Positions 3,960-48,858 of a stretch of 49,706 nucleotides of DNA are shown piece by piece. The translations under genes and the position numbers were made by a program. The DNA lies in IMG/VR virus record IMGVR_UViG_3300025093_000031, positions 1 to 49,706 of that record; one strand, given 5' to 3'. The stretch comes from a virus. Positions within the stretch are counted from its first letter, which is position 1. Each line of letters begins with the position of its first letter. A model generated the notes under the pieces. The model had not been told where the DNA came from, ran no database searches, and saw nothing but the letters and a program-made list of their open reading frames with translations.

Positions 3960-6497
3960 ATGCCTGCTTATCAACACCTTGCTTACCGACGTAACGCACA
4001 GGCTGCTGCACGCAGGCAACAAATTCGAGTTCCACGAAATCTTGAATCCCTGGAGAAAGCACGGGAAGATTTTGGGTTCTTTTGTGAGTATGTAGCAGAT
4101 AAACCACCAGCCGCTCACCACAAAGAATGGCACAGACAGTTTGTTACCGGCAATGATAGTAATTGTTTGATAAAGATTGCCGGTCCAAATGTTGATCTCT
4201 TGGCGCCGAGGGGCTCCGCCAAAAGTACCGTCCTTGGGTTGTTTACGGCATGGGCTATTGGTGTTCACACCATGGCAAAAATGCCGCTACAAATTCTTTA
4301 TCTTTCCTACACAGTCGATATTGCTCGATCTAAGTCTGCAACGATTAAACGAATCATTGAAAGCAAGCGCTACCAAGAAGTTTTTCCAAAGGTACGGCTA
4401 CTCAAGAACGTTACCAGCAATGAGTATTGGTCTATTGATCACAGGTTTGCAGGTATTGACACCACTGGTGAAGAACAATTCACACTCTGCGCTGCTGGCC
4501 TCAAGGGCTCCGTGACTTCTAAGCGCTCGCACTTGTGCTTGACAGGTGATACACTAGTTACGACCAACGTTGGTCAAGTGCCAATTAAAGCTATTTATGA
4601 AGATCCAGACCGATACCAAATTGCTGTTAGAAACTCAGAAACAAATCAAATTGATTGGAGCAACGTGGGGGCAGTTACAAGGCGTTTTACCAAAGGCATT
4701 GTTGACATTACAACAGCCTCTGGAAATCGTATTTCAGCAACTCCCGAGCACCCTTTCGTTACGCAAGACGGAAAACAAAAGAGGGCGGGAGATCTTAGTG
4801 CAGGGGATGTCCTTGTCAGAGCATCCAACAGGAGACAAGATAAAGAACTGTCTTTCCTGCGGGGGGCCAAAGAAAAAAACACAACGTATCTGCGAGGCTT
4901 GTTTTCGTACAACACAGGCTTTTCAGGTAAGGCCAACTTGTCCGCAGTGTGGCCAACAGTTTTGCGTAACCTCAAATCGCTTATCCCAACGTCTTTCAAA
5001 AAATCCATTAGTGATTTGTTGCAGCCATCAGTGTACTGGAGCAGCATCACGAAAGCTTCAGGAAAAATCTTGTCCAGTTTGTCAAGCATTATTTCGACCA
5101 GTCAGTCACAAAACAACTTGTTGCTCGCGGGAGTGTGCGAATCACCTTCATTCACGGCGAATGAAAAAGACTGGGAACAGCAATTACCAACACGGCTGCA
5201 GTTCCAACGATTTTCAGGAAATGAGACCGTTGATTTTGGAAAGGGACAATTTTACTTGCGTTGGATGCAATACAAAGGAGCGGAAGTTGTTATTAAGCAA
5301 CGGAACGTCCAGGACAAATCTTTGCGTACATCATATCGACCACAAAAAGACAAACAATATCCCGCAAAATTTGATTACATTATGTCGCCAGTGTCATGTG
5401 GCGCATCATCAGGTAACGGACAAGGCTGGTCGCCCGAGCCCGTTTCCAGAGTTGAGTTTCTTAGCGAAAGAGAGGAGTTCGTCTATGACCTAGAAGTAGA
5501 GCATTTAGACCACAACTTTATCGCTAATGGTTTAAATGTTTTGAATTGCATAATTGATGACGCGATCAAGTCAGCTGCAGATATTTCTAACCCTGACATC
5601 CGTAAACAGATGCAGGAGAACTGGAATGCGGTGATTGCACCAACAATGTTTGAGGGTGGACGTGCCATCTGTCTTGGTACGCGCTTCAGACATGACGATA
5701 TTCACTCCACAACATTCAACCCACAAAACAACTGGATTCAAATTGTGTTGTCCGCCATCTTGAACGACCCTAAAACAGGGGACGAATTCTCGTATTGGCC
5801 TGAGATGTGGTCACTGGATTACCTGAAAGAAAAGAAGAGGCAAGCACCTATTGCCTTCTCGTTCCAGTACATGAATCAGGTGATCAGACAGAATGAACTG
5901 TCCTTGGCACCAGAGCTTATTGTAAAAGCCGAGATCGCCACTGAGTTCGATACGATTGCTGTGGGAGTCGACCTATCTGCTGGTACAAAAGAAAAGAATG
6001 ATTACACGGTAATGACGCTTGCCGGTCGAATTGGCGATCAGATTCACGTGATTGATTACCGCCGGTTGCGTGTCATGGGCAACCTTGAAAAGCTGGATGC
6101 CCTTAAAGAACTTCTTAATGATTGGTCTATCGTGGGACGTGACGAAAACGGAAATTACTATCCGACCTACTCCACATGCGATATTTATTCAGAAGCTGTG
6201 CAATACCAGGCTTCTCTTGAATCAGACTTCAAGCGTGTTTGTTTAAACAATGAAAATCTTTATAACTTAAATTGGCACGCAGTCAAAGGATTCCGCGCCG
6301 ATAAACTTGCGCGTTTCCGTGGTTGCATGGGTCTTTTTGAAGATCGTAAGATAATTTTCAATCGATTCCGTAACTTCACGGCAATGTTCGAAGAGCTGAC
6401 GAACTTTGGTATTAGCAGTCACGACGATTGCGTCGATAGCTTGGTTTGGGTCATTAACGGTTTGATGCGCAAAGGAAAACTACAGGTTGATTACTAG
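3960..6497 (+). CDS. terL: Terminase large subunit (TerL) interrupted by an intein
   Basis: 845 residues before splicing and 508 after removal of a 337-residue intein. TerL is the ATPase/nuclease motor that packages DNA into the prohead. Walker A is at residues 82-90 (APRGSAKST); Walker B (IIDD) follows immediately after the intein. The C-terminal RNase H-like nuclease has its acidic residues in GVDLSAG, CDIYSEA and HDDCVDSL. The extein joins ...SKRSHL to CIIDDAIK, restoring an uninterrupted Walker B strand, so splicing is needed for a working motor. Start ATG 3960. The intein insertion at the most conserved site of an essential gene is typical of homing elements. Confidence 0.9.
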   Translation: MPAYQHLAYRRNAQAAARRQQIRVPRNLESLEKAREDFGFFCEYVADKPPAAHHKEWHRQFVTGNDSNCLIKIAGPNVDLLAPRGSAKSTVLGLFTAWAIGVHTMAKMPLQILYLSYTVDIARSKSATIKRIIESKRYQEVFPKVRLLKNVTSNEYWSIDHRFAGIDTTGEEQFTLCAAGLKGSVTSKRSHLCLTGDTLVTTNVGQVPIKAIYEDPDRYQIAVRNSETNQIDWSNVGAVTRRFTKGIVDITTASGNRISATPEHPFVTQDGKQKRAGDLSAGDVLVRASNRRQDKELSFLRGAKEKNTTYLRGLFSYNTGFSGKANLSAVWPTVLRNLKSLIPTSFKKSISDLLQPSVYWSSITKASGKILSSLSSIISTSQSQNNLLLAGVCESPSFTANEKDWEQQLPTRLQFQRFSGNETVDFGKGQFYLRWMQYKGAEVVIKQRNVQDKSLRTSYRPQKDKQYPAKFDYIMSPVSCGASSGNGQGWSPEPVSRVEFLSEREEFVYDLEVEHLDHNFIANGLNVLNCIIDDAIKSAADISNPDIRKQMQENWNAVIAPTMFEGGRAICLGTRFRHDDIHSTTFNPQNNWIQIVLSAILNDPKTGDEFSYWPEMWSLDYLKEKKRQAPIAFSFQYMNQVIRQNELSLAPELIVKAEIATEFDTIAVGVDLSAGTKEKNDYTVMTLAGRIGDQIHVIDYRRLRVMGNLEKLDALKELLNDWSIVGRDENGNYYPTYSTCDIYSEAVQYQASLESDFKRVCLNNENLYNLNWHAVKGFRADKLARFRGCMGLFEDRKIIFNRFRNFTAMFEELTNFGISSHDDCVDSLVWVINGLMRKGKLQVDY
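4536..5546 (+). mobile_element. Intein in TerL (337 aa)
   Basis: The self-splicing element starts with Cys1 (CLTGDTLVTT, block A), has block B with the TxxH signature (SATPEHPFVT), and ends with block F/G (VYDLEVEHLDHNFIANG, then ...NVLN) followed by the +1 Cys of the extein. The penultimate residue is Leu rather than the usual His, which some active inteins tolerate. About 98 N-terminal and 36 C-terminal residues form the splicing domain. The roughly 200 residues between are low-complexity in this frame and contain no DOD or HNH motif; the endonuclease is instead encoded in the +1 frame. Confidence 0.88.
4807..5493 (+). CDS. HNH homing endonuclease nested out of frame inside the TerL intein
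   Basis: The +1 frame relative to TerL is open over 4570-5493; ATG 4807 is the best start (228 aa), just inside the intein after its N-terminal splicing domain. The product has several zinc-finger pairs (CLSCGG, CEAC, CPQCGQ, CCSHQC, CPVCQ, CCSREC) and a textbook HNH core: CVGC, then CVHHIDHKKTNNIPQNL and CRQCHVAHH. It ends 53 nt before the intein end. AGGGG abuts the ATG and GGGAG lies about 15 nt upstream, so independent initiation is possible but not strong. It presumably cuts intein-free terL genes to drive homing. Confidence 0.82.
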   Translation: MSLSEHPTGDKIKNCLSCGGPKKKTQRICEACFRTTQAFQVRPTCPQCGQQFCVTSNRLSQRLSKNPLVICCSHQCTGAASRKLQEKSCPVCQALFRPVSHKTTCCSRECANHLHSRRMKKTGNSNYQHGCSSNDFQEMRPLILERDNFTCVGCNTKERKLLLSNGTSRTNLCVHHIDHKKTNNIPQNLITLCRQCHVAHHQVTDKAGRPSPFPELSFLAKERSSSMT

Positions 6498-10548: not shown

Positions 10549-12859
10549 GTGTTTATTGATAGCTAGTTCAGTATCGGCGTACTGAACGCTCACGTTGTCA
10601 CCTTATCAAGTAATTGATAAGTGCACACCGGATGAATTCAGGGAAACCCTAACGTAAAGACGAGGGCAATCCTGAGCGAAGTCAATCAAGCGTGATTGAA
10701 ACGTGCAGAGACTACTGGGGGTAACACGATCTTGTTACGTAAAACCAGATTTAGCGTCCGGCATCCTACCAAGGATGAAGAGATAGTCCAACCCTCTAAG
10801 AAACTAGAGACTAGGTGAACGATTTTCCAAAAATCTTGGGTGCAGAGCTTTACCGCCCTCACCCTGCCTACATCGCCGAAATGGCAGTCGAGCCTGTGGT
10901 CGTCCATGACTTCACTCGTCAGCCTGGTCAAACTGTCCAGTTAGACCGTTGAATTTGTAGCGGTCTTTAAATCCTGTGAATTGCTGGAAACCCTTCAATG
11001 CGCTAGCATCGGGCAATCAGCAGCCAAGCCGCCCAGAAATGGTCGGAAGGTCCAACGACTACCCTTGGTCACACAGTGAACCTTTCTTTTTCCAAAGCGT
11101 GCACCTTGGGCGATGGATGCCTGGGGTATCCAAAAGGTAAAAATACTTGTTATTTATCTTTTACGCACTCAGAAAAACAAAAAGCTTTTCTTGAGTGGAA
11201 AATGTCCAAAGTCAATCAAGAACTAGGGACAAACGGAAAAGTTAATTCCAGAAAGGTTTACGATAAGCGCACCTTGAAAACTTATGATTCTTGCCATTCT
11301 ATGGTGACCAGTAAATTACTGGTTCCCTTAAGAGAACAATTTTATCCTGAAGGTAAAAAACAGTTTTCTCAAGGGTACCTAGATGGACTGGGCTTAGAAG
11401 CTTTAGCTGTTTTTTGGATGGATGACGGTTGTGTAGTAAGCTCCAATAACGTGGGCCTGCTTGCAACATATTGTTCTGAGCACGAAGCAAAAATAATTGC
11501 TTCTTGGATACACGATTTAACAAGCCTTAACCCAAGGCTTTATCTAGATCGAAAACACTATCGCTTAAGAATCTTAAGTGGAGAGATGCCTAAGTTTGTA
11601 ACGTTGTTACGGCCTTATGTGCATTCAACATTACAAAACAAAGTGACCCTGCATTACAAGAACAGAACAAAAAATTCTGAAATGTATGCAGCGAGTCTTA
11701 ACATTGCTTTTGCAGATGAAGACGATAAGAGGGCACGAGCGCAGGACAGGTAACATTTGTTACTTGATGATATAGTCTGAGCTTACGGGATGACAAACCG
11801 TAAGAACCAGGGGATAAAGAGCCCTTGGGATAACATTTGTATAAGTTCTGGGGTACCCCTGGTACTAAGGACAGCCGTGAGCGTATTGCCGATCAAACCA
11901 TCGGTACCGCTAACAGCCGTAACATCACCAAGGAGAAAGTCCTGGTGGTGCTTAAGGAATATACTGGTCCTGCAGATCCGGGTGATCCGACCCAGCCTTC
12001 GACCTTCAAGATTGCGCGCGAGACCCTGATTACCGCCCAGCGTCTTCTGCTGGACACCGGTAACCTGAATATGTTCCACCAGTCGATCGGTAGCCTGACG
12101 CTGCTTGACGACTATCGCCGCTGGCGTGATCGCGTGTTCATCGACGAACTCGCCAAAGCAGAAGCTAATGGTGCTGCTTCTACCTCCCAGGGTGGCTACT
12201 ACTTTGCTGGTGGTAAGACCAAGGATTCCCAAGGTCGTATCTCCTACACCACTGGTGAGTACGGCAACGAAGTGCAGCAGTTCCAGGTGAAGACCGACCT
12301 GCTGACCATTGTTAAGGATCTGCGTAAGCGTAACGTTCCGACCTTCACTGATGGTCTGTATCGTTGCATTTGCGATCCTACCTTCATGATGCACCTGCGT
12401 CGTGATAGTGACTTCCGTGAGATTGCCCGCTACGCTGGTAATCCTGGTCAAGGCATGTACATGGGTAACCCCATGATGCCTAACAACGCCAGCTTCTACA
12501 TGGGTCCCCAAGCTGGTCAGGGCTATTTCCTGGCTGGTGAGCCTGTGATGCCGACTGGTGTTCAGTTCGAAGGTGTTAAGTTCTTCGAGTCGACCAACTT
12601 CCCGACCAAGAATGTAACCGCATCTTTTGATGATGGTTCCAGCTATGCTTCTAAGGAAGTGGCCCAAGGTTACTTCTTCGGTCCTCAGTCGATTGGTGTT
12701 GGTATCGGTGGTCCTAACGCCCAGGTGCTGATCAACAACAACGATGACTTCAGCCGCTTCATCATCCTGATCTGGCAACTGTACGCTGGTTTCGAGATCC
12801 TGAACAAGGACTTTGTGACCACTGCTTACAGCTTCGTTCAAGACGACGGCACTGTTTGA
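10549..12859 (+). CDS. Major capsid protein, split by two group I introns (about 386 aa when spliced)
   Basis: The proposed mature message joins exon 1 (10549-10557, GTG TTT ATT), exon 2 (10818-10949, 44 codons starting NDFPKILGAELYRPHPAY) and exon 3 (11840-12859, 339 codons starting YKFWGTPGTKDSRERIADQT). A GGAGG site at 10534-10538 lies 10 nt before the GTG. Exon 3 alone has the size and composition of an HK97-fold capsid protein. The exon 2/3 junction is supported by perfect P1 and P10 pairings; the exon 1/2 junction is less sure, because a GTG at 10815 could instead start exon 2 without splicing. It follows the scaffold and precedes a decoration-type protein. Confidence 0.75.
10558..10817 (+). 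ncRNA. Group I intron 1 of capsid gene (about 260 nt, ORF-less)
   Basis: Core elements are clear: GAATTCAGGGAAACC, GGGCAATCCTGAGCGAAG, GTGCAGAGACTA and GAGATAGTCC in order. Pairings seen: P3 CCGGA 10628-10632 with TCCGG 10757-10761; P4 CAGG/CCTG; P7 GACTA 10710-10714 with TAGTC 10784-10788; P8 CATCC/GGATG; P9 CTCTA/TAGAG. The core closely resembles cyanobacterial tRNA-Leu introns. Ends are proposed from reading frame and P1: exon GTGTTTATT pairs with GATAAGTGC (10616-10624), with a U-G at the splice site and a long stem-loop (10561-10590) in the P1 loop. P10 is weak, so the 5' end is uncertain. Confidence 0.8.
10950..11839 (+). ncRNA. Group I intron 2 of capsid gene (890 nt, with LAGLIDADG ORF)
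   Basis: The 5' exon end AGACCGT pairs fully with the internal guide GCGGTCT (10960-10966), with the conserved U-G at the splice site. The first six bases of the 3' exon, TATAAG, pair with TTTGTA (10954-10959), a clean P10. The intron ends in G (11839). P7 pairs GACTA 11057-11061 with TAGTC 11773-11777; other core segments are GCTGGAAACCC and GGGCAATCAGCAGCCAAG. The endonuclease ORF is inserted between the two P7 strands, most likely in loop 8. Splicing joins ...QLDR to YKFWG in frame. Confidence 0.9.
11076..11753 (+). CDS. LAGLIDADG homing endonuclease in intron 2, 225 aa
   Basis: GTG start within the intron. Two LAGLIDADG-type helices are visible: ACTLGDGCLGYPK near the N-terminus and LEALAVFWMDDGCV near residue 110, so this is a single-chain, two-motif enzyme of usual length. 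The fold contains the expected acidic residue in each motif. It would cleave the intron-less capsid allele at the insertion site to spread the intron. The ORF sits in a peripheral loop, leaving the ribozyme core intact, the standard arrangement for mobile group I introns. Confidence 0.85.
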   Translation: MNLSFSKACTLGDGCLGYPKGKNTCYLSFTHSEKQKAFLEWKMSKVNQELGTNGKVNSRKVYDKRTLKTYDSCHSMVTSKLLVPLREQFYPEGKKQFSQGYLDGLGLEALAVFWMDDGCVVSSNNVGLLATYCSEHEAKIIASWIHDLTSLNPRLYLDRKHYRLRILSGEMPKFVTLLRPYVHSTLQNKVTLHYKNRTKNSEMYAASLNIAFADEDDKRARAQDR

Positions 12860-45993: not shown

Positions 45994-46033
45994 GGTCAAA
46001 TCTTCAGCCAAGAAGTATAAGGAGAACAAGTAA
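45980..46033 (+). other. 17-codon mini-ORF, remnant of a duplicated gene end
   Basis: ATG 45980 to TAA 46033: the product MAYDKVKSSAKKYKENK mirrors the end of the 45443 protein (AKSAAKKYKEDK). It overlaps the previous stop and the next ATG, and brings the repeated AAGGAG. It may be a coupling peptide or the scar of a duplication. Confidence 0.45.
46005..46024 (+). repeat. 20-nt repeat carrying AAGGAG, copy 2
   Basis: Identical to 45699-45718; lies 8 nt before the 46033 start. Confidence 0.85.
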
Positions 46034-46941
46034 TGGGCGATCTATTTCAAAAATTCCTTAATCGCGTAAACCGTGGTTACAGTCAAGTAGATAAGAATGT
46101 ATTTGGAGGATTCCTCCCCGGCGGATCAGCAAGTCCAGTATCTCCTATAAAAAAGAAAACGCAACAACAAACAACTACTGCAGTTAAGACCGTCGCTGGC
46201 GGTTTGATGAATCAATTGCCTGATCGCATCAATCTTTTTGGGCGTTATGTAACAGGAGTTGGCAATACTAATTTACAACTTGATCCTTCCACATTAAGTG
46301 GATTAAGAGCAGCTGCATCTCCTGATCCAATGGCAAAAGGAATGGTTCCAAATCCTTTCAAAACACCAGAAGAACTTTTAGTTCGATTAGAAAAACAACT
46401 TGAAACAAGTGATCCACGAAACTTGAACAGCCCCTTGGGAAAGGAATTAAAACAAGTCGTTGAAGAAGGCAGAAAGAATAGAACAGCCCCTGATTTTGTT
46501 TTGGGACCTGTTCCTGCTTATGGGCCTGGGCTTCCTCGCTCTGGCGCTTATCAACCATATCAAAATCAAAGCATTGGGAAAGAAGTAACCAATACATTGG
46601 GATCTTTTAATACAGAAGTCGTCCCTGGAAAATCAATTCGTTTTATAGATACATACGATATGACTAATCTTTCTGAAGACCCCGATCTTGTTTCAGGTAA
46701 ATTCCAACCAATCAAAGCCCTGGAGGAAATACAAAGCATTTGGAATCCAACAAAAGGCAGTTTAAATCGCAGTATACCGCAATTTGCAAAAAATGAAATG
46801 GGCCAAGGTAAATACGGCGACATTAAAACAGCCGCTAGTTCTCCTGTTGCAAGTCCAGCCACTGCAGTTGGAAGAGCATTACTTTATGCAATGCCCTTGA
46901 AACCAACTCCATATTCAATTGATGTAACTATTCCTTACTAA
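46033..46941 (+). CDS. Virion-type protein, 302 aa (paralogue of 47941 gene)
   Basis: The N-terminus (LFQKFLNRVNRGYSQVDKNV then FGGFLPGG) is clearly related to the minus-strand product of 47941-48858 (LFQQFLNQVNRGYGQLDKKV, FGGALPGG). The rest is Asn/Pro/Lys/Gly-rich, with further weak parallels (GSFNTEVVPGKSIRFIDTYD against YDFNSYNVSTPLFAPG). Possibly an internal virion or tail component. The pair is in opposite orientation with the tRNA/HNH island in between. Confidence 0.6.
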   Translation: MGDLFQKFLNRVNRGYSQVDKNVFGGFLPGGSASPVSPIKKKTQQQTTTAVKTVAGGLMNQLPDRINLFGRYVTGVGNTNLQLDPSTLSGLRAAASPDPMAKGMVPNPFKTPEELLVRLEKQLETSDPRNLNSPLGKELKQVVEEGRKNRTAPDFVLGPVPAYGPGLPRSGAYQPYQNQSIGKEVTNTLGSFNTEVVPGKSIRFIDTYDMTNLSEDPDLVSGKFQPIKALEEIQSIWNPTKGSLNRSIPQFAKNEMGQGKYGDIKTAASSPVASPATAVGRALLYAMPLKPTPYSIDVTIPY

Positions 46942-46943
46942 TT

Positions 46944-47147
46944 ATGGCAGACAAGGCTATACAAAAGGGATATACCAAGCGTTACCTACCAGAAAAAGCT
47001 TGGGCCTCACTGTCAAAAGAAGAACGTGAGGAAACTGATCAGAAGAAAAGAGAAGGTAGCAGGCAAGGCAAACAGTTCATACCAAACACAGAGAAAGCAA
47101 AGAGAGCTGGTCGCGCTGCACGTCGTTATCGCGACAGTAAATCATGA
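46944..47147 (+). CDS. Basic DUF5872-like small protein, 67 aa
   Basis: MADKAIQKGYTKRYLPEKAW and LSKEEREETDQKKREGSRQG followed by KAKRAGRAARRYRDSKS form a highly basic, helical protein; the AKRAGRAARRY block is typical of small cyanophage/algal-virus DUF5872-type proteins. Starts 2 nt after the 46033 gene. Nucleic-acid binding likely. Confidence 0.6.
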   Translation: MADKAIQKGYTKRYLPEKAWASLSKEEREETDQKKREGSRQGKQFIPNTEKAKRAGRAARRYRDSKS

Positions 47148-47160
47148 TATCCTGACATGC

Positions 47161-47294
47161 AGAGCACTTCAGCTCTGGGAGTAATAGTCGAACACTCCCT
47201 CACGTAACGTACGTAACTCACGCCTCGGCCCGAGAGACTTAACGTTTGAGCAGGAAGGAAACTCTTGCCCCGGCTTAGTACACCGGGGTTTTTT
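47161..47294 (+). ncRNA. Structured RNA with intrinsic terminator
   Basis: Consecutive stems are visible: AGAGC/GCTCT (47161-47176), GGGAGT/ACTCCC (47177-47199), CTCG/CGAG (47224-47234) and the terminator. No ORF fits. It may be a separate small RNA or the 3' UTR of the basic-protein operon. No match to a known RNA family was recognised. Confidence 0.5.
47268..47294 (+). terminator. Strong Rho-independent terminator
   Basis: CCCCGG and CCGGGG pair around a 9-nt loop, followed by TTTTTT (47289-47294). It separates the protein genes from the tRNA region. Confidence 0.92.
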
Positions 47295-47297
47295 GTG

Positions 47298-47303
47298 TAT
47301 AAT
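47298..47303 (+). promoter_or_regulatory. -10 box TATAAT for the tRNA region
   Basis: A perfect TATAAT with TG upstream (TGTGTATAAT) immediately after the terminator; no clear -35. It is placed to transcribe the structured RNA/tRNA block. Confidence 0.55.
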
Positions 47304-47375: not shown

Positions 47376-47385
47376 CCGAGATAGA

Positions 47386-47457
47386 GGTGCAGTCCCTGAT
47401 TGGATACGCCTGGTTAACTCACAGCCCGATTGTCGGTAAGCCAGTCACACTGCATCC
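47386..47457 (+). ncRNA. tRNA-like element (72 nt, isotype unclear)
   Basis: GGTGCAG pairs with CTGCATC (47450-47456) in a 7-bp acceptor-like stem, and the D-loop-like TGATTGGATAC follows. No proper T-loop or 5-bp anticodon stem is visible; a long internal stem (CTGG..CCAG) is present instead. It may be a degenerate or reshaped tRNA. Confidence 0.35.
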
Positions 47458-47461
47458 ATCA

Positions 47462-47562
47462 CACTCAGTCCGATCTAATTGGATAGGACGGCACCTGTTG
47501 ATGTACTGGACGCAGTGCTATACACAGGGAATGCGGTAAAGGTTCGAATCCTTTCTGAGTGC
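47462..47562 (+). tRNA. tRNA with oversized anticodon region (isotype undetermined)
   Basis: Acceptor CACTCAG (47462-47468) pairs with CTGAGTG (47555-47561); the T arm is perfect (AAAGG-TTCGAAT-CCTTT, 47538-47554); the D loop has AATTGGATAGG. Between D and T arms lie ~48 nt, including CCTGT/ACAGG and an inner GTACTG/CAGTGC stem, so no standard 7-nt anticodon loop can be assigned. At ~100 nt it is longer than class II tRNAs. It may contain a small insertion. Confidence 0.65.
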
Positions 47563-47566
47563 TTAA

Positions 47567-47637
47567 CGGGGTGTAGTAGAAAAGTATCACACTGCTTTTG
47601 GGAAGCAGAGGAGAAGGGGCAGTACCTTCCATCCCGA
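47567..47637 (+). tRNA. tRNA-Pro(TGG) with non-canonical elbow
   Basis: Acceptor CGGGGTG/CATCCCG is intact (one G-T) with A discriminator. The anticodon arm CTGCT-TTTGGGA-AGCAG gives anticodon TGG. The T stem GAAGG/CCTTC is intact, but its loop is GGCAGTA instead of TTCGANN, and the D region (AGTAGAAAAGTATCAC) lacks the GG that would contact it and has only a weak stem. No encoded CCA. It begins 5 nt after the previous tRNA. Confidence 0.8.
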
Positions 47638-47689: not shown

Positions 47690-47944
47690 ATGGCTTGGGC
47701 CGACGCCAAGAAACGCATCGACAAGAATAGAAAGAAGCTTCTGGATTACAAGAAGACTTTGCAATGCCAGAAGTGTGGGTTGGATGATCATCGTGTCCTT
47801 GAGTTCCACCATGTAGGCGACAAGGACAATAACATCTCATCCATGGTGAACCACGGTTACTCCTGGAGCAGGGTAGAAGAAGAGATCAGTAAATGTATTC
47901 CACTCTGCTGCAATTGTCACAGGCTGGAGCATTGGATTAGTTAA
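47690..47944 (+). CDS. Small HNH endonuclease, 84 aa
   Basis: ATG 47690 gives MAWADAKKRIDKNRKKLLDY. The zinc/catalytic blocks are LQCQKCGLDDHRVLEFHHVG and CIPLCCNCHRLEHW, a minimal HNH fold. Placed directly after the tRNAs, a frequent insertion site for mobile genes. An upstream start at 47666 is rejected. Probably a homing endonuclease. Confidence 0.82.
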   Translation: MAWADAKKRIDKNRKKLLDYKKTLQCQKCGLDDHRVLEFHHVGDKDNNISSMVNHGYSWSRVEEEISKCIPLCCNCHRLEHWIS

Positions 47945-48858
47945 CGGAATTTAAAGTCAACAGGATAACCAGCTCCTGGTTGTATAAATCCAAATTTATC
48001 GGCAAGCCTTAGTGCTTTGTCAGCTAGCTTTCTACTGCTAACAGGCTCGCCAATAACACCACCAACCATTGATCCTGGAGCAAATAAAGGCGTACTTACA
48101 TTGTACGAATTAAAGTCATAACGTTCTCCTTTGGTACGACCATCTTCAACCTGGTACCTTCCCAGCGTGTTAACAAGTCCTTTATTGATAAGAGCTTCTT
48201 GTTCATTACTGAATTTCAATCCCCTTGGACCAATCATGTTGTATGCTGACATTGTGTAGTTGCGAGGGTCATAGTTAACTTTTCTTTCGGCTCCAAGTAC
48301 ATCTTCGTCTCCATAATATTCCAGTACATTTTTCATCCCAAGATTTTTAGCTAATTGATCTACATTTTGTTTTAGACGATCAACTTCTTGTTGTTGCTGA
48401 GCGCTTGCCGGAGAGCCGGTCCCATACATATTGAACATTTGGTTTTGTTGGCGTACAGTCCGGTATTGATCAAGCCATGCTTGATTTGCTGTTTTTAGTT
48501 CAATTAGTTTTTTATCTCTTTCCGTAGGATTAACAAGTCTTTCATTGACTAGTGTTTCTGCTGCACGCGTGTCAGCTGGGATGCGTGTTAAAGGGTTAGA
48601 AGTTCCGGATAAGAAACGAGCGAACATTCCTTCTTTAGCTGGAACAACTCCTTTTTCCATTGCAAAATCAAGCGCAGGAATTACAGCTTTATCTCTTATT
48701 GTTTTGTATACAGGAGATGTTGCGACTGCTCTTATTTTTGGGGCAATACTAGAAGATATAGAAGCTCCACCAGGAAGTGCTCCACCAAACACTTTTTTAT
48801 CAAGCTGGCCGTAACCGCGGTTAACTTGATTGAGAAACTGTTGAAATAAATTTGGCAT
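47941..48858 (-). CDS. Virion-type protein, 305 aa (paralogue of 46033 gene)
   Basis: N-terminus MPNLFQQFLNQVNRGYGQLD is shared with the 46033 product. The rest is Lys/Asn/Gln-rich, with a helical middle (QEVDRLKQNVDQLAKNLGMK) and a beta-like end (AGYPVDFKFR). Transcribed opposite to its paralogue, converging on the HNH gene by 4 nt. Likely structural; orientation suggests an inversion or independent insertion. Confidence 0.6.
   Translation of the reverse strand: MPNLFQQFLNQVNRGYGQLDKKVFGGALPGGASISSSIAPKIRAVATSPVYKTIRDKAVIPALDFAMEKGVVPAKEGMFARFLSGTSNPLTRIPADTRAAETLVNERLVNPTERDKKLIELKTANQAWLDQYRTVRQQNQMFNMYGTGSPASAQQQQEVDRLKQNVDQLAKNLGMKNVLEYYGDEDVLGAERKVNYDPRNYTMSAYNMIGPRGLKFSNEQEALINKGLVNTLGRYQVEDGRTKGERYDFNSYNVSTPLFAPGSMVGGVIGEPVSSRKLADKALRLADKFGFIQPGAGYPVDFKFR

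Follow-up and report, generated by a model that had tools for sequence, protein, structure and literature searches.

Near the end of the window, the 49,706-nt stretch of a virus record analysed here, lies a cassette of structured RNAs that includes a new form of phage tRNA, hereafter called Pro*. Pro* is a tRNA-Pro(UGG) with a remodelled elbow. Beside it lies a tRNA-like cloverleaf without an anticodon loop, hereafter called element C. Because both recur in many related viruses, with mutations that compensate each other, they have the appearance of working RNAs kept by selection and not of broken tRNA genes. The contact between the D loop and the T loop is among the most conserved features of tRNAs. 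A family in which both loops have been exchanged, yet which is maintained as a phage tRNA-Pro, provides a natural test of how far the elbow is needed and of what attacks it, and it is relevant to why phages carry tRNAs at all, a question still open.

The RNA cassette and its surroundings

The best annotated match in the cassette region was to Synechococcus phage S-EIV1, and the source phage is a cyanobacterial virus resembling S-EIV1. Three structured RNAs, A, C and Pro*, were located in the last 2.5 kb of the window, all on the + strand and bounded by a phrog_14910 gene (46944-47147) and an HNH endonuclease gene. The features are as follows.

47380-47460, + strand: element A, a conserved hairpin (GATAGAGG-N6-CNCTG ... 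N6-TCCATC) with a variable apical part; 16 distinct homologues
47462-47562, + strand: element C, long form, a tRNA-like cloverleaf with no anticodon loop; 89.8 bits with model R1, 14 distinct homologues
47462-47468, + strand: 5' strand of the C acceptor, pairing with 47555-47561, with discriminator C47562; compensatory changes in 6 of 7 acceptor pairs
47491-47534, + strand: central arm of C in place of an anticodon arm, with helices GCA/TGC and CCTGT/ACAGG and the apical hairpin GTACTGGACGCAGTGC (47503-47518); the helices covary in alignment A4
47538-47554, + strand: T arm of C, AAAGG-TTCGAAT-CCTTT, with a canonical T loop; 100% of T-stem cells paired, double-sided changes in 3 of 5 pairs
47567-47637, + strand: Pro*, tRNA-Pro(UGG) with a remodelled elbow; 8 distinct sequences in 19 contigs
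47580-47586, + strand: D loop of Pro*, AAAAGTA, GG absent; identical in 8 of 8 distinct sequences
47599-47601, + strand: anticodon TGG of Pro*, in the loop TTTGGGA (47597-47603); loop invariant, flanking anticodon stem covarying
47618-47624, + strand: T loop of Pro*, GGCAGTA; GGC[AG]GTA in 8 of 8 distinct sequences
47690-47944, + strand: HNH endonuclease gene, following the RNA cassette; matches PHROG HNH families, best E 7.5e-21

The three RNAs are co-directional and separated by 1 nt (A to C) and 4 nt (C to Pro*), and are therefore probably cut from a single transcript. The first-pass annotation, which was made from the sequence without database searches, had described a degenerate or remodelled tRNA cluster at 47386-47637. 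This range covers C and Pro*, but its start falls inside the third element, hairpin A. ARAGORN reported 0 tRNAs in the window and so missed both Pro* and C, and within the cassette Pro* alone was recognised by Rfam, as a tRNA. Blastn searches with Pro* and with C against phage isolates gave no useful match.

Several other features of the window were recorded. At 47145-47300 lies a leader-like RNA that contains a terminator and several hairpins; it is kept in contigs L002 (6130-6250) and L082 with GTAATAGTCGAA; a pattern search with GTAATAGTCGAA for this upstream leader gave matches mostly at chance expectation. The proteins encoded at 46033-46941 (+) and 47941-48858 (-) have a common N-terminus, LFQ.FLN.VNRGY.Q.DK.VFGG.LPGG, beyond which their sequences diverge. 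An intein (Pfam PF14890) is present in the terminase gene at 3960-6497, with an HNH reading frame (4570-5493) inside the intein in a different frame. A group I intron (97.8 bits) at 10571-10810 is followed by a LAGLIDADG endonuclease gene at 11076-11753.

Pro* as a maintained tRNA-Pro

The covariance-model check proposed in the first-pass annotation placed Pro* among tRNAs, with a score of 38.9 bits against Rfam RF00005, over the curated cut-off of 29. The claim that this tRNA-Pro(TGG) has lost both the D-loop GG and the T-loop TTC was borne out by the Rfam alignment, in which the D loop is AAAAGUA and the T loop is GGCAGUA where UUCRANU is expected. The canonical elbow combination of a D-loop GG with a T-loop UUC was absent from all 8 distinct Pro* sequences, and a normal T loop was found in none of the 4 distinct Pro* sequences tested versus all 26 canonical tRNAs of the same loci. 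C56 and one D-loop G survive in Pro*, so that a G19-C56 pair is still possible. All other stems had also been thought to be kept. This holds for the acceptor, anticodon (loop UUUGGGA) and T stems, which are complete, but not for the D stem, which has one A-C mismatch in every copy. The tRNA-Pro identity features examined, namely anticodon UGG, U33, C1-G72 and A73, were all present and invariant in the alignment.

With the additional copies found by a search for the Pro* loops, there are the 8 distinct sequences and 19 viral contigs given above. Among these no change is seen in the D arm, and a single loop base differs in the T arm. The acceptor versions are CGGGATG/CATCCCG, CGGGGTG/CACCCCG and CGGAGCG/CGCTCCG; those of the anticodon stem are CTGCT/AGCAG, TTGCG/CGCAA and CCGTC/GGCGG. 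Double-sided changes were observed in six pairs (three in the acceptor and three in the anticodon stem), 95.2% of alignment cells were paired, and the covariation score was reached by 0 of 500 shuffles. Judged on these alignments, the pattern is that of a maintained tRNA. The fixed D and T arms are by themselves no proof of selection, since horizontal spread is possible, and recent horizontal spread could in part account for them; the compensatory stems carry most of the weight. The earlier suggestion that the paired loss of the two loops was selected is favoured by these compensatory stem changes, which accumulated while the odd arms stayed near-fixed.

Were Pro* and C decaying pseudogenes of a formerly canonical cluster drifting out of function, the fall in score to 31-42 bits from the canonical 65-76 and the failure of ARAGORN to find either RNA would be accounted for. 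We regard this as very improbable, because the same odd loops occur in 19 contigs and in several genomic contexts with compensatory stem changes, no Pro* copy was found with a broken acceptor, anticodon or T stem, and C covaries in all five helices; pseudogene decay is contradicted by this covariation. The description of the cluster as degenerate was not supported; in relatives either a canonical tRNA-Pro is present or Pro* is intact, its stem changes being compensatory. Decay in related phages, which the first-pass annotation had named as evidence that would count against its proposal, was looked for in these relatives and was not seen. A scan of 84,980 bacterial and archaeal species genomes with the Pro* pattern gave five matches, all with different spacing (50-57 bases versus 48 in Pro*), and these were taken as chance.

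The HNH gene of the window identifies this locus in some 80 related contigs. In most of the records fetched in this way the place holds canonical tRNAs (58-76 bits), Pro* (41-42 bits) or other tRNA-like RNAs (31-34 bits). In L002 and L003, the nearest relatives, this place is taken by a canonical tRNA-Pro(TGG) of 68.2 bits, followed by the same HNH gene, and many other relatives likewise have a canonical tRNA-Pro there. In this phage group Pro* occupies the spot of the relatives' canonical tRNA-Pro. A different arrangement was seen in L040, L031 and L048, in which a canonical tRNA-Pro is split in the anticodon loop, the anticodon is gone, and Pro* and an HNH gene lie between the halves. The 5' part ends in ...CTGCT, and the 3' part reads A-GCAG (A-GCAA in L040). 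In two of these split loci the HNH gene matched PHROG 4234 (E 7e-30 and 9e-33), L048 being judged by sequence alone, and a covariance search of the three loci with Intron_gpI gave no group I intron match. The stop codon of the HNH reading frame falls within Pro* in L226, the same junction is present in L221, and an HNH gene is also close to Pro* in L222. In L216 and L229, Pro* lies within tRNA arrays, and the part of each contig that was read showed no HNH gene.

Pro* was also found in large tRNA arrays of G080 (279 kb) and G081 (134 kb), in which ARAGORN named 21 and 24 tRNAs, respectively. No other tRNA-Pro was found among the ARAGORN calls in these two arrays, and Pro* is the only tRNA-Pro found there. 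Replacement of the canonical tRNA-Pro by Pro* is not strict, because G082 carries both, and strict mutual exclusion of the two was thereby ruled out. In L023, the interval from element A to element D, next to Pro*, holds a 215-aa reading frame (2132-2779) with a putative GIY-YIG-like N-terminus; PHROG gave no match for it.

Element C and other RNAs of the cassette

In the window, C is 101 nt long, with a 7-bp acceptor, a normal T arm and a long central arm. The neighbour of Pro* had been described as having a normal T arm and an over-long central region with an internal hairpin, and this agrees with the T arm and the GTACTGGACGCAGTGC-capped arm listed above. The sequence CTGGACGCAG, common to the window, S-EIV1, L068 and L079, was seen ahead of any pattern search for C. 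Fourteen distinct long forms align over their full length, and RNAalifold together with pair counts gave an acceptor, a D arm (2+2 pairs with a bulge), the long central arm and the T arm. Double-sided changes were present in 18 of the 26 pairs, 98.4% of cells were paired, all five helices covary, and C1-G72 is found in all 14 sequences. The folding energy of C was -35 kcal/mol versus -25.7 kcal/mol for shuffles (z -2.84). In a leave-one-out search, model R1 built from the 13 other sequences detected the window copy with a score of 89.8 bits (E 2.7e-20). For this neighbour, the earlier suggestion of a new RNA element is supported, and the element is conserved. Over 95 sources, R1 detected 41 C copies at 48-113 bits, the scores of canonical tRNAs lying mostly around 20 and not exceeding 31. 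Short forms of C, 75-78 nt in length, were detected by R1 in 28 cases (48-62 bits), and every long form tested was detected by the short-form model. The hairpin loops of the short forms are about 3-5 nt, and the long form has a nested hairpin.

Features shared by C with tRNAs are the 7-bp acceptor, the UUCRANU T loop and the D-loop GG (alignment A4 and pair counts), but an anticodon stem with a 7-nt loop is absent from both the long and the short forms. RF00005 gave no gathering-level match at 47462-47562, nor any in a scan up to E 10, and no match in the S-EIV1 record. Because a hairpin replaces the anticodon arm, C is probably non-decoding; it would be a co-transcribed tRNA mimic. The term tRNA mimic, proposed in the first-pass annotation for both RNAs, suits C better than Pro* because C has no anticodon loop; Pro* is more like a working tRNA, with its UGG, U33, C1-G72 and A73 and its position as the only tRNA-Pro found in two arrays. 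Two other identities for C were rejected. In a class II tRNA with a long variable arm the extra hairpin would follow the anticodon arm, but in C it is nested in the central arm. A spliced tRNA does not fit, as no intron family matched and removing one insertion from the long form does not yield the short form.

The N6/N6 helix of element A has all six pairs changed on both sides, with 98.9% of cells paired and a covariation score of 0.433 versus 0.139 in shuffles. A sister family, hereafter called B2, is a tRNA-like cloverleaf of about 72 nt that has a 3-bp stem and a GACAA loop for its anticodon arm; a search of the window for B2 found none, whereas S-EIV1 has A, B2 and C. The GACAA loop is invariant in alignment A5, although in the larger B2 set it was itself in the search pattern. 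The 54 distinct copies have 99.4% of cells paired and 134 double-sided cells. B2 occurs in more than 100 viral contigs, for example L306:1174-1245 (-) and L365:2728-2799, and in the cultured cyanophages S-PM2 (L433:5001-5085; locus 164,644-164,728 of S-PM2), S-RIM8, S-RIM32, S-CREM1 and others, mostly unannotated, as in S-PM2. The S-CREM1 copy is flanked by tRNA-Met and tRNA-Leu, and manA and wcaG RNAs belong to the same cluster. Because B2 is present in cultured cyanophages such as S-PM2, its function is testable in an existing phage-host system.

Further unnamed conserved RNAs, B1 (ACACCCC..GCTTAGCT..GATGATGCACAAA..GGGGGT), D (GGGTGCAACAAGGAACGTTGCA..CATCCTTGCCCT) and E (AAGGGGTT..GTCAGTGCCCTT), are shuffled between phages in such cassettes (L040 1961-2300, L038 2321-2760 and L043 2391-2780).

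Possible roles and comparison with known systems

The explanation that best joins these observations, and that we hold to be moderately probable, is that Pro* is a working surrogate tRNA-Pro evading an agent that reads the elbow, and that C is a non-decoding, co-transcribed tRNA mimic. Its support comes from homology, from conservation and covariation, from the replacement seen in relatives, and from the linkage to HNH genes found in several contexts. Pro* would be expressed, matured and charged, would substitute for the canonical tRNA-Pro(UGG) found at this locus in relatives, and would decode proline codons. Its acceptor and anticodon arms and its proline-type end (C1-G72, A73) would have been kept while the D and T loops were rewritten jointly and the elbow contact was rebuilt, and a nuclease or homing endonuclease reading the normal D/T-loop sequence would no longer act on it. 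Homing endonucleases that cut tRNA genes and tRNA-directed immunity are two plausible agents. C keeps the acceptor, D arm and T arm, which tRNA maturation enzymes read, with the anticodon arm swapped for a hairpin, and would most likely serve as a decoy, as a mature tRNA mimic or as a module for processing or stability. A decoy or processing role is favoured because features used by maturation enzymes are kept but C probably cannot decode. Since C and B2 retain a normal T loop, the agent avoided by Pro* would not be the driver of the whole cassette. The permanent mismatch in the D stem of Pro* tells against this explanation.

SegB cuts within tRNA genes at the motif RAWTSGAAC (PMC13096335), the reverse complement of which, GTTCSAWTY, is the usual T-loop DNA and is absent from Pro*. 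Pro* may be resistant to homing: an HNH mobile unit would destroy the anticodon of the canonical tRNA-Pro and bring with it a recoded tRNA that its own or another endonuclease cannot cut. This proposal is tentative, with somewhat less than an even chance of being right. It would fit the HNH gene and Pro* standing in place of the anticodon in the three split tRNA-Pro loci, the overlap of Pro* with the HNH frame in L226 and the nearby HNH gene in L222, but sits poorly with the arrays of L216 and L229. Homing of the SegB type is further opposed by the exact motif being present in only 2 of the 26 distinct canonical tRNAs of these loci, and by the nearby genes being HNH and not SegB-like.

A role in counter-immunity, in which Pro* would be unrecognisable to a tRNA-cleaving defence and C (with B2) would be a decoy soaking up such enzymes, is in our estimate somewhat unlikely; we know of no elbow-reading defence nuclease in these hosts. 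In its favour, C and B2 retain the tRNA elbow without an anticodon, and the logic has precedents: phage tRNAs changed in their loops escape anticodon nucleases (van den Berg et al. 2023, PMC10264068), and T5 tRNA-Tyr is shielded from retron-Eco7 by a distinctive variable loop (PMC13096335). The nuclease-evading tRNAs resemble Pro* in having altered loops and, as proposed for Pro*, retained decoding, but their changes are in the anticodon loop, whereas those of Pro* are in the D and T loops. A broader proposal, that the anticodon-less RNAs (C and B2) and elbow-recoded surrogates (Pro*) form a modular cyanophage arsenal jointly shielding phage translation from enzymes recognising the canonical elbow or tRNA genes, is rather doubtful. 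It is clearly unlikely that C (and B2) act as processing punctuation, with ends cut by RNase P and RNase Z that would free A and neighbouring RNAs from one transcript. The spacing of 1-4 nt between the window RNAs is consistent with this, as is the best preservation, within C, of the acceptor and T arm, the parts read by such enzymes; the conserved CTGGACGCAG apex of C and the GACAA loop of B2 would be left unexplained.

Canonical phage tRNA-Pro(UGG) and Pro* are alike in anticodon, C1-G72, A73, acceptor, anticodon and T stems, and genomic place in relatives, but the former score 65-76 bits versus 38.9-42 for Pro*, which lacks the D-loop GG and T-loop UUC. The anticodon-less cloverleaf families C and B2 are missing from Rfam and are, as far as searched (Rfam 15 and literature other than that specific to T4), unnamed. 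The nearest kind are T4 rnaC and rnaD, the species 1 and 2 stable RNAs of the T4 tRNA cluster, which are likewise phage RNAs beside tRNAs and a homing endonuclease gene, with no assigned role. Their homology with C or B2 was not supported: rnaC scored 20.3 bits with R1, at the level of ordinary tRNAs, and models R2 and R3 matched neither rnaC nor rnaD. The manA and wcaG RNAs of cyanophages (PMC2864571) are also structured RNAs in cyanophage tRNA clusters, and no match of A or C to either was obtained in the Rfam search. The pseudo-tRNA tRNA-Other of Bacillus cereus (PMC3399842) is a tRNA-like RNA outside translation, as is proposed for C, but it has a Trp anticodon, whereas C has no anticodon loop and belongs to a phage family with many covarying members.
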